Positions 12,940 through 16,066 of a stretch of DNA of 64,000 bases are shown here, piece by piece. Under the pieces are notes generated by a model that saw only the letters and a list, made by a program, of their open reading frames with translations, searched no databases and was not told the DNA's origin. Positions within the stretch are counted from its first letter, which is position 1, and every line of letters starts with the position of its first letter. Both the position numbers and the translations under genes were made by a program. This DNA comes from Larkinella humicola (GTDB taxonomy: Bacteria > Bacteroidota > Bacteroidia > Cytophagales > Spirosomataceae): contig NZ_VTWS01000001.1 of NCBI RefSeq assembly GCF_008727875.1, positions 1,178,001 through 1,242,000 on the forward strand, read 5' to 3'.

Positions 12940-13096
12940 CTGAGCTATAACAAACAACGCCGGCCTCAACCTGAGCCGGCGTGTTAAGATTACACTTCAT
13001 CAACAAACTAAAAACCAATCGGAATGCAGCTACAGAAACCAAATTGAGCTGCCGAAGCCTTAATTATGTTGCGGCTGATTAAAATCAGGCCATAAG

Positions 13097-13256
13097 CTGT
13101 AGGAGGGGGACTCGAACCACCCACGGTGCGGTTAGCTACAGTACAACTTCTGGTGGTCAACCCCAGTCGCTTTTGCAAGCGGCATTATGCTGCGTTTATC
13201 CCGAACTCACCACCCCCGAGACAGGAGGGCACGTCTGCCAATTTCGACATCCTACA
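13097..13256 (-). tRNA. tRNA-like gene with giant variable arm (type II body, GUC anticodon loop)
   Basis: Read 5' to 3' on the minus strand from 13256. A perfect 7-bp acceptor stem pairs TGTAGGA (13256-13250) with TCCTACA (13104-13098); the discriminator is G (13097) and no CCA is encoded. The D-arm region CGAAATTGGCAGACG is leucine-type. The anticodon arm is CCCTC/GGGGG (13229-13225/13217-13213) with 7-nt loop CTGTCTC: U33 present, anticodon GUC, but U at 37. The T-arm is GGTGG-TTCGAGT-CCCCC (one U-C mismatch). Instead of 4-20 nt, the variable region is 91 nt (13212-13122), with TGGTG (13212-13208) pairing CACCA (13155-13151) around a GNRA-capped hairpin CGCTT-GCAA-AAGCG (13181-13168). It may be a functional, very unusual tRNA, a tRNA-derived ncRNA, or a decayed tRNA. 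tRNA-likeness is read directly; function is inference. Confidence 0.72.
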
Positions 13257-13313
13257 AGGTAAAAAGAACGCTGTCTAACCGGCCGCATGACCTTTCTGAC
13301 CGATTGAACAATA

Positions 13314-13346
13314 CAAAGTTAATGCAAAACCGTTGAAGTTTACAAA
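13314..13346 (-). promoter_or_regulatory. Bacteroidota-type promoter for the tRNA-like gene
   Basis: On the minus strand TTTG (13346-13343), 21 nt, then TAACTTTG (13321-13314) match the Bacteroidota sigma-A consensus TTTG / TAnnTTTG. Transcription would begin near 13308 and leave a leader of about 50 nt before the mature 5' end at 13256. Confidence 0.6.
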
Positions 13347-13430
13347 TTCTTTAGAAAAAAATTAGAAAAATTTCTGTTTTCTCAAAATATCACTTATTTT
13401 GTTGATGATATTAAAAATTTTACGGTTCAA

Positions 13431-13919
13431 ATGGAAAAAAATTTAGAGATTGACAATGTCGATCTCAAGATCCTCACGTTATTGATGGAAGATGCCAACA
13501 TGGCCTACACGGAAATCGGTAAACGGATTTTTGTTTCGGGTGGTACCGTTCACGTCCGGATGAAAAAAATGGAGCAGATGGGCATCGTTCGCGGCTCCCA
13601 ACTGGTCATCGATCACACCAAATTAGGCTGGGACATCAGCGGTTTTCTAGGCATCTATCTGGACAAAAGCTCCCTTTACGAAGATGTTGCTACTGAGTTA
13701 TTGAAAATTCCCGAAGTTGTCAACATTCATTATACGACCGGCATTTACAGCATTTTTGCCAAGATTGTCTGCCGGGACACCCAGCATCTGCGCGAAGTGT
13801 TACACGACAAAATCCAGAAAGTAAGCGGCATACAACGAACCGAGACGTTTATTTCGCTGGAAGAACGGATTTCCCGACCCATTCCGTTCGGCGTTAATGT
13901 ACCTGCCGACAAAGAATAA
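13431..13919 (+). CDS. Lrp/AsnC family transcriptional regulator
   Basis: 162 residues: N-terminal winged helix-turn-helix (DNVDLKILTLLMEDANMAYTEIGKRIFVSGGTVHVRMKKMEQMGIV, about 8-53) and a C-terminal RAM/AsnC ligand-binding ferredoxin-like domain. Members bind DNA as dimers to octamers in response to amino acids. It is transcribed divergently from the tRNA-like gene across an AT-rich 170-bp interval, so autoregulation or control of that gene is possible but not shown. It converges with the next gene, 4 bp between stops. Confidence 0.92.
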   Translation: MEKNLEIDNVDLKILTLLMEDANMAYTEIGKRIFVSGGTVHVRMKKMEQMGIVRGSQLVIDHTKLGWDISGFLGIYLDKSSLYEDVATELLKIPEVVNIHYTTGIYSIFAKIVCRDTQHLREVLHDKIQKVSGIQRTETFISLEERISRPIPFGVNVPADKE

Positions 13920-14620: not shown

Positions 14621-16066
14621 ATGAGCAAAGACGTTGAAATTTTAGAGAGTATTACCAATTCCGAATACAAGTACGGTTTCGAAACGCTGATTGAAGCGGA
14701 TGAGGCACCGATTGGCCTGAGCGAAGACATCGTTCGGTTTATCTCTGCCAAGAAGAATGAACCGGAATGGATGCTGGAATGGCGGTTGAAAGCATATCGG
14801 CATTGGGTAACGCTGTCTGAACCCCACTGGCCTAACCTCAAATATCCCGCAATCGATTATCAGGGACTTAAATACTACTCGGCCCCGAAGCAGAAAAAAA
14901 CCATCAATAGCCTGGACGAAATCGACCCCGAACTGCGCGCGACCTTCGAGCGGTTGGGCATTTCGTTGCAGGAACAGGAACGGCTGTCGGGCGTTGCGGT
15001 CGATGCCGTGATCGACTCGGTTTCCATTGCCACTACATTCAAGGTGAAACTAAAAGAACTCGGCATCATTTTCTGTTCGATGACCGAAGCGGTGCAGGAA
15101 TACCCCGAACTGGTCAAGAAATATTTAGGCTCGGTGGTTCCGCCGAGAGACAATTACTTTGCCGCCCTCAACTCGGCGGTTTTTTCCGACGGTTCGTTCT
15201 GCTACATCCCTAAAGGCGTTCGTTGCCCGATGGAACTTTCAACCTATTTCCGGATCAACGCGGCCGGAACCGGGCAGTTCGAACGGACGCTGATCGTGGC
15301 CGACGAAGGCTCTTACGTGAGTTATCTGGAAGGTTGTACGGCCCCGATGCGCGACGAAAATCAGTTGCACGCGGCTGTCGTTGAGCTGGTTGCGGCTAAG
15401 GAAGCCCAGATCAAATACTCGACGGTTCAGAACTGGTATCCGGGCGACAAGGAAGGGAAAGGCGGTATTTACAACTTCGTGACTAAACGCGGTATTTGTG
15501 AAGGCGCTCACTCGAAAATCTCCTGGACCCAGGTAGAAACCGGTTCGGCCATCACCTGGAAATACCCGTCGGTGATCCTGAAAGGTGATTATTCGATCGG
15601 TGAGTTTTATTCGGTAGCGGTGACCAACAACTACCAGCAGGCCGACACTGGAACCAAAATGATTCACGTCGGCAAGAACACCAAAAGCCGGATTGTGTCG
15701 AAAGGGATTTCGGCGGGAAAAAGTCAGAACTCGTACCGGGGTCTGGTGCAGGTGTTCAAACGCGCTGAAAATGCCCGGAACCACTCCCAGTGCGACTCCC
15801 TCCTCTTGGGCGACCGCTGCGGAGCGCATACGTTCCCGTATATCGAGGTGAACAACCAGACGGCGACCGTCGAACACGAAGCGACGACATCCAAAATTGG
15901 CGAAGATCAACTGTTTTACTGCAACCAACGCGGTATTCCAACCGAACAGGCCGTGGCGCTAATCATCAATGGATACGCCAAAGAAGTGCTGAACCAGTTG
16001 CCGATGGAATTTGCGGTGGAAGCTCAGAAATTACTGGAAATCAGTTTGGAAGGAAGTGTGGGATAA
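14621..16066 (+). CDS. sufB: Fe-S cluster assembly scaffold SufB
   Basis: 481 residues, normal SufB length. Diagnostic segments include [74 protein letters not shown] and [28 protein letters not shown]. SufB forms the SufBC2D scaffold that builds Fe-S clusters. Start [13 protein letters not shown] at 14621. Unusually, sufC, sufD and sufS do not follow: a terminator-like hairpin and then an unrelated DUF1028 gene come next. Confidence 0.96.

Follow-up and report, generated by a model that had tools for sequence, protein, structure and literature searches.

A conserved giant tRNA-like RNA of Bacteroidota and phages, possibly a non-decoding tRNA for asparagine synthesis

The window analyzed here, a stretch of 64,000 nucleotides from Larkinella humicola, encodes on its minus strand a giant tRNA-like RNA of 160 nt, UGUAGGA...UCCUACA-G, that runs from U1 at 13256 to G73 at 13097 and is followed by a genome-encoded and conserved C74 at 13096 (whole element, 13096 to 13256). 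Conservation and covariation support the element, which adopts a full tRNA cloverleaf. The 7-bp acceptor stem (UGUAGGA/UCCUACA; 5' side 13250 to 13256, 3' side 13098 to 13104) pairs U1 with A72, the amidotransferase signal, and G2 with C71, and six of its seven pairs changed on both sides in the 129-row alignment described below. The D arm (13231 to 13247) has a covarying 3-bp stem, with an outer pair that is T.T in the window copy, and a loop GGCAG lacking a 20a base. In the anticodon arm (13213 to 13229), a 5-bp stem whose fourth pair covaries holds the 7-nt loop CUGUCUC (13224 to 13218), with GUC at 13222 to 13220, U37 at 13219, and C38 at 13218. The T arm (13105 to 13122) consists, according to the comparative alignment, of 5 bp with a bulged pyrimidine and the loop UUCGAGU. 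About 90 nt separate the anticodon stem from the T stem, and a giant variable arm (13125 to 13211) lies between them. An earlier note on this DNA had described the same acceptor stem, a Leu-style D-loop, the anticodon stem with its 7-nt loop, a TTCGA T-loop, and an oversized variable region, and all of these parts were recovered on the minus strand. The elbow bases G18, G19, and UUCGA are conserved as well; with its acceptor, D, anticodon, and T arms, the element has the structure of a tRNA.

ARAGORN made no call in the window, and Rfam 15 gave no match at the element, even at an E value of ≤10 on 13000 to 13350. Similarly, Rfam at its gathering score had no match in 10 loci of relatives, and ARAGORN, run on 40 such loci, called nothing at the element and one ordinary tRNA elsewhere. 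The earlier note had allowed that a covariance model might place the RNA in another known family; no Rfam family fits, and dedicated models find relatives. BLAST against the L. humicola genome found a single copy. Identity as a tmRNA was rejected, there being no Rfam match at the element and a separate canonical tmRNA in 19 of the 19 relatives searched. A small reading frame in the arm of the window copy (ATG..TAA) was rejected by eye from the alignment of relatives, because length changes break the frame, and so was mimicry of an anti-Shine-Dalgarno sequence (CCUCCU in the stem), because compensatory changes occur at the fourth pair of the stem.

Since folding of the single sequence was no better than that of shuffles (z = -0.73; 38 of 200 shuffles were equally good), the evidence for structure is comparative. 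For 40 Spirosomataceae copies, 98.1% of the cells were paired and both-side changes occurred at 15 pairs, a level that none of 500 shuffles reached. A wider alignment of 129 distinct rows from the order, the class, and phages, for which 98 loci were searched and which was fitted to a covariance model and therefore leans towards the structure, was 97.4% paired and contained 750 double-changed cells (0 of 500 shuffles); 32 of its 40 pairs changed on both sides, and its covariation score was 0.388, compared to 0.136 in shuffles. Each of the four cloverleaf stems shows compensatory variation, that of the anticodon arm being confined to one pair of five. Homologues with covarying stems, on which the earlier note had made its proposal depend, do exist, and every arm covaries.

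In the variable arm, the closing helix GGTG/CACC leads through a step of 2 bp into a conserved internal loop, in which AUAAA faces CUAA, and beyond this loop stands a long helix (13192 to 13185 with 13146 to 13139, minus strand) that covaries, with changes on both sides at eight of eight pairs. Its apical motif CUGGGGUUGACCACCA (13151 to 13166, minus strand) is near-invariant in Spirosomataceae and has a relative in 68 of 79 phage copies; it would allow a hairpin reading, UGGGG-UUGA-CC(A)CCA, in which one A is bulged. The previously proposed closing helix TGGTG/CACCA showed no compensatory change and was broken in 8 of 200 cells. The true partner of GGTG (13211 to 13208) is CACC (13128 to 13125), with both-side changes at three of four pairs. 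A GCAA-capped hairpin had also been proposed; it is real, and its stem covaries in Spirosomataceae, but the apical part differs in other families. In the T stem, a bulged pyrimidine is a better description than the U-C mismatch reported earlier. Across 224 distinct host copies, a set that includes copies fetched by a pattern fixing C32, U35, C36, C38, and GGCAG, this stem was a bulged 5-bp helix in 42, straight in 147, unparsed in 30, and of another form in 5.

The RNA was present in nine of nine Larkinella genomes (that of the window included), with 97 to 100% identity, and BLAST matches were found in 183 of 200 Spirosomataceae genomes and 29 of 36 genera of this family. To gather copies beyond the family, we used a covariance model, R1, built on 40 Spirosomataceae copies chosen from 51 that had been filtered for the loop CTGTCTC, an input that biases the model towards this loop. 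In the order Cytophagales, R1 matched 222 of 241 genomes at an E value of ≤0.01, a count that includes weak matches to ordinary type II tRNAs; about 170 of the 241, counted by eye, had a match with an E value below 1e-14. In the class (395 genomes), the matches listed fell into one group with E values of ≤2.7e-15 and lengths of 108 to 196 nt and another with E values of ≥1.5e-12 and lengths of 81 to 85 nt, the latter being taken to be ordinary type II tRNAs. Among these listed matches, the giant group comprised, by eye, about 68 of the 395 genomes, from 19 families. A second model, R2, applied to a phylum sample of 395 genomes, gave giants at 93 bits or more and other matches at 71 bits or less among those listed, and one family outside the class (f133) had the giant RNA in three genomes, with triples in two of them. 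A 77-nt R2 match at 71 bits (G210:C23:55337-55413) lies between the giants and the ordinary tRNAs and perhaps represents a copy whose variable arm has collapsed.

Tandem arrays were present in the fetched loci, with six copies in L106 and L107 and five in L109, L117, and L229, spaced by about 130 to 210 nt. An exact-pattern scan of named genomes returned at least 80 loci, and those listed include Hymenobacter, Dyadobacter, Algoriphagus, Cyclobacterium, Pontibacter, Fulvivirga, Phaeodactylibacter, and Saprospiraceae bins, together with one bin named merely as a bacterium and one Streptomyces locus that had no model match. A search of plasmids with one window query found no match.

Bacteroidota-type promoters have the consensus TTG, 18 to 23 nt, TAnnTTTG. 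Upstream of the giant RNA, on the minus strand, we found a -7 element, TAACTTTG (13314 to 13321; consensus TAnnTTTG), and, 21 nt from it, a -33 element, TTTG (13343 to 13346). The arrangement TTG-N18..23-TAnnTTTG occurred within 220 nt upstream of 88 of 167 host elements, compared to a mean of 3.2 in shuffles and 6 on the reverse strand. The promoter assumed in the earlier note can be specified as a predicted Bacteroidota-type element that recurs across host loci. None of 19 phage upstream regions contained this promoter type.

On the plus strand, a divergent gene (13431 to 13919) encodes an AsnC-type transcriptional regulator of 162 amino acids with Pfam AsnC_trans_reg and HTH_AsnC-type domains, and its best sequence match in the PDB is E. 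coli AsnC (2cg4; 117 bits, the next chain reaching 85). Clustering of the neighboring proteins of 182 host loci showed that 126 of them have a gene of the Lrp/AsnC family upstream, on the other strand and at a median distance of 153 nt; within the 25 largest clusters, the others of which were judged by eye, it was the sole widely recurring neighbor. A profile search, in which 7 loci were set aside, found the divergent AsnC gene in 129 of 175 testable loci; the other 46 have a flank of 700 nt or more and no such gene. After identical upstream sequences were merged, 120 of 163 testable groups had it. In no locus did AsnC lie upstream on the same strand. The partner was found in 16 of 19 sampled families; it was absent from the sampled loci of f18 (seven), f24 (four), and f83 (three testable) and from all 94 viral loci. 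A gene downstream of the AsnC-type gene (14621 to 16066 in the window, with relatives elsewhere), which we presume from its sequence to be sufB, belongs to a neighbor cluster that is present in 49 of 182 loci; because of this recurrence, the AsnC-sufB gene order may be old.

The pattern also matched 94 stretches of viral contigs, and, of 80 viral contigs examined, R1 recovered a complete or almost complete element in 79; in the remaining one it is cut by the contig end. These copies comprise 64 distinct sequences. Eight of 10 proteins from the viral contigs matched phage protein families, which include those of the terminase large subunit, a primase, an RNA ligase, and an exonuclease. ARAGORN found 1 to 25 tRNAs at each of 31 viral loci and a tmRNA as well at 11. 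Three phage-copy queries found no relative in cultured phages, and an origin of the RNA from plasmids or cultured phages was rejected, since neither these queries nor the window query had a match.

Several features are peculiar to the phage copies. The giant RNA lies 4 nt downstream of a tRNA-Ser in L294, L296, L297, L305, L311, L328, L339, and L349, and the same 4-nt spacing to an upstream tRNA-Ser is seen in L355, L367, and L291, as if the two were cotranscribed. Perfect palindromes of at least 8 nt were present in 37 of 48 distinct phage apices, compared to 11% in shuffles; at many of the variable-arm tips of loci L291 to L370 they measure 8 to 12 nt and differ in sequence, as in GCCGGCCGGC, GCATGCATGC, and GCTAGCTAGC. 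Such palindromes may allow kissing-loop homodimers, for which the dimer loops of the HIV type offer a comparison. A hairpin-like insertion in the D-loop was seen in L297:1473-1643, L333:2552-2723, L340:814-984, L357:7142-7311, and L337:1316-1485. Finally, tmRNA genes in the same phage tRNA clusters (L320:5143-5517, L308:1341-1732, L349:1840-2225, L357:9574-9957, and L321:3393-3776) have unusually long predicted tags of 24 residues, e.g., AVELSTMTFEDAMAFVGADYAVAA.

Bacterial aspartate identity resides mainly in G73, G34, U35, C36, and C38, and also in G10, and amidation depends on U1-A72, whereas G1-C72 and U20a prevent it in tRNA-Asp (PMC9976931, in part); U1-A72 is the pair recognized by GatCAB (PMC4206432, in part). 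We counted these bases in two separate sets of distinct copies: 95 copies that came from 57 loci outside Spirosomataceae and had been retrieved with a covariance model rather than by their loop sequence, and 58 full copies from Spirosomataceae, gathered by BLAST (of 59, one being cut by a contig end). Outside Spirosomataceae, U35, C36, C38, G73, and C74 were each present in 95 of 95 copies, G34 in 91, and U33 in 85; the five Asp determinants occurred together in 91. The share of G34 was thus 96%, compared to 97% in wider counts that include loop-selected copies. All 95 copies also had U1-A72, G2-C71, the D-loop GGCA, and no 20a base. Within Spirosomataceae, all 58 copies had CUGUCUC, U1-A72, G73, C74, and GGCA. 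The sequence expected of an AspRS substrate (G73, G34, U35, C36, and C38) was therefore found in 91 of 95 and 58 of 58 copies and that expected for amidation to Asn by GatCAB (U1-A72 without U20a) in 95 of 95 and 58 of 58. The window copy has U10 and hence lacks the G10 of the Asp set.

Position 37 told a different story from an ordinary tRNA-Asp: outside Spirosomataceae it was U in 89 copies, C in 6, and a purine in none. U33 together with a purine at position 37, as a decoding tRNA-Asp should have, was found in 0 of 95 copies outside and 0 of 58 inside Spirosomataceae, whereas both were present in all 36 ordinary tRNAs examined from the same genome. Among these 36, only Asn and Gln tRNAs start with U. 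The ordinary tRNA-Asp of the host has the loop CUGUCAC and the 5' end GGA; the giant loop is identical to this loop except at position 37, and the giant first base is that of tRNA-Asn. The ordinary tRNA-Asn of the genome has a 20a base (GGTTAG), which the giant D-loop GGCAG lacks.

The view that G73 and GUC serve as Asp identity elements gains support from these counts, since the determinants are kept across copies. U37 and U1, which the earlier note had listed as oddities, are not local peculiarities and look central. As both the AspRS identity set and the amidation signal are conserved, selection appears to keep the charging and amidation set, and the purine at position 37 needed for decoding is missing. 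Decoding by a GUC tRNA charged with Asn would presumably do harm, and the loss of purine 37 fits this expectation. Because U33 is kept in 85 of 95 copies, only position 37 is consistently nondecoding. A decaying gene, one of the options considered earlier, is excluded by conservation and covariation, and the option of a new class of giant tRNA is supported by conservation, by covariation in every arm, by the recurrent promoter, and by the kept Asp determinants. We have almost no doubt that the RNA represents a conserved and unannotated family built on a tRNA body.

We then compared gene content in 80 genomes picked from the giant RNA survey, 50 giant-positive and 30 giant-negative, the negative status resting on Infernal's stricter filters. 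Fisher P values are given as a guide only, since the genomes are related and the values overstate. AsnRS was present in 80 of 80 genomes. GatB, by which we judged GatCAB, was found in 50 of 50 giant-positive but 22 of 30 giant-negative genomes (P = 0.0002, genomes related), and in family f61 it was present in the two giant-positive genomes and absent from the two giant-negative ones; this result fits a required enzyme. AsnA was found in 4 of 50 giant-positive and 1 of 30 giant-negative genomes and AsnB, above the cutoff, in 43 of 50 and 30 of 30, respectively (P = 0.04, genomes related). The seven genomes without AsnB above the cutoff were all giant-positive and had no AsnA; by E value, four had no AsnB match at all and three had one below the cutoff. 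With AsnA and AsnB both absent from just 7 of the 50 giant-positive genomes, the giant RNA is in general not the only asparagine source. In 18 surveyed genera, including some Bacteroidetes, AsnRS, GlnRS, and GatCAB all occur without an asparagine synthetase (PMC4206432, in part).

Our main reading, to which we give a probability of about 0.45, is that the giant RNA is a dedicated nondecoding tRNA on which AspRS and GatCAB would make asparagine under the control of AsnC. The RNA would be processed and CCA tailed, AspRS would load aspartate onto it, and GatCAB would convert the bound aspartate into asparagine, which would then be released; the loop and the arm would keep the RNA out of the ribosome. 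AsnC would tune its transcription to the supply of asparagine, as in E. coli, where AsnC activates asnA and asparagine dampens this activation (PMC8707732, in part). The variable arm might serve as a scaffold for the enzymes or prevent access of elongation factor and the ribosome, and phages might carry the RNA to sustain asparagine supply during infection. The parts of this reading differ in strength. It is likely that the RNA does not decode. Judging from its identity bases, we lean slightly towards its being aspartylated, we see an even chance that the aspartate is then amidated, and we put asparagine supply as the purpose a little short of even. Tentatively, it may be pictured as a reusable RNA cofactor for free asparagine under an asparagine-sensing regulator, spread across Bacteroidota and phages, with phage copies that may dimerize via their arm-tip palindromes.

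Several observations stand against the asparagine reading. GatB also occurs in 22 of 30 giant-negative genomes, and its presence may be explained by Gln-tRNA instead; AsnA is as rare in the negatives, and asparagine need not come from the giant RNA, because 43 of 50 giant-positive genomes have AsnB above the cutoff. Additionally, G34 is missing in 4 of 95 copies and G10 in the window copy, AsnC is absent from f18, f24, f83, and the viral loci, and the reading explains neither the conserved motif of the variable arm nor the palindromes of the phage copies.

The same identity elements and the lack of purine 37 would also suit a charged nondecoding carrier that passes Asp or Asn to a lipid, wall, or peptide acceptor. 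Nonproteinogenic tRNAs do exist, for example, the wall-synthesis tRNA-Gly of staphylococci. However, no transferase gene recurrently adjoins the element in the 25 largest neighbor clusters, the only widespread neighbor being the AsnC-type regulator, and we consider such a carrier unlikely. An equally doubtful candidate is a regulatory or sensor RNA whose charging state, or whose binding by AspRS, GatCAB, or AsnC, would report Asp/Asn supply without being a biosynthetic intermediate. It would account for the divergent AsnC-type gene and the strongly conserved apical motif, and the tandem arrays suggest dosage, but the U1-A72 of all 95 copies from outside Spirosomataceae and the link with GatB point to amidation over sensing alone. 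The tRNA-derived regulatory RNA envisaged in the earlier note is possible but less favored than the asparagine reading.

We regard it as very unlikely that the RNA is an oddly shaped tRNA-Asp that decodes or a tRNA dedicated to some special codon context. The cloverleaf is indeed intact, GUC is present in 91 and U33 in 85 of 95 copies, and phage copies lie in clusters of up to 25 tRNAs, some of them 4 nt from a tRNA-Ser. Against this, position 37 is a pyrimidine in 95 of 95 copies, U33 is lost in 10 of 95, and an ordinary tRNA-Asp is present in the host and in 7 of the 31 phage loci scanned, so that the giant RNA is not needed for Asp codons. Still less do we expect a seryl-tRNA-like RNA charged by SerRS through the long arm and G73. 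Its type II body, G73, G2-C71, and R4-Y69 (in 217 of 224 distinct host copies) agree with bacterial Ser identity as tabulated in PMC9976931 (in part), and positions 2-71 and 73 together with the long arm also fit SerRS; yet position 72 is A rather than C, and the conservation of U35, C36, and C38 would be left unexplained, since recognition by SerRS is expected to bypass the anticodon loop. A decoy or replacement RNA in phage-host conflict, e.g., against anticodon nucleases, is hardly credible even though many uncultivated viral contigs carry the giant RNA, because its chromosomal presence in 183 of 200 Spirosomataceae genomes, usually with the same regulator and often with the same promoter type, makes it housekeeping-like.

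We found no earlier report of a giant tRNA family in the literature within our scope, which excluded subscription papers and preprints, and the part of the review of noncanonical tRNAs PMC7609411 considered here contains no mention of "Bacteroid" and no arm this large. A housekeeping-like RNA of most sampled Cytophagales genomes, which extends beyond this order and into phages, has no Rfam 15 or ARAGORN match. If the asparagine reading is true, amino acid biosynthesis would take place on a dedicated nontranslating RNA that sits where E. coli has asparagine synthetase A, which would help to explain why GatCAB is retained in bacteria with AsnRS. Even if the function differs, the limits of variable-arm growth and the uses of an apparently nondecoding tRNA become testable questions.

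Compared to known systems, the giant RNA resembles the tRNA-Asn of the indirect AspRS/GatCAB route in its U1-A72, its G73, and the proposed aspartyl and then asparaginyl ester, but it has a GUC instead of a GUU loop, a pyrimidine at position 37, a giant variable arm, and a divergent regulator. With tRNA-Asp it shares G73, G34, U35, C36, C38, and the loop except for position 37; unlike tRNA-Asp, it has U1-A72 rather than G1-C72, no 20a base, and a type II body of about 160 nt. As in the type II tRNAs (Leu, Ser, and Tyr), a long variable arm occupies the same place, and the D arm resembles that of tRNA-Leu. However, class II variable arms are defined by 10 or more nt (PMC7609411, in part), the arm of the window copy has about 90, and the model matches listed form two separate groups. 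The tmRNA (RF00023) likewise combines tRNA-like ends with a large extra domain, whereas the giant RNA has a complete anticodon arm and no conserved reading frame was seen in it. Finally, the asnC and asnA genes of E. coli are divergent, and there, as at the giant locus, an AsnC-type regulator adjoins a gene for asparagine supply, a role that is proposed for the giant RNA; the partner in Bacteroidota is an RNA and not asparagine synthetase A.
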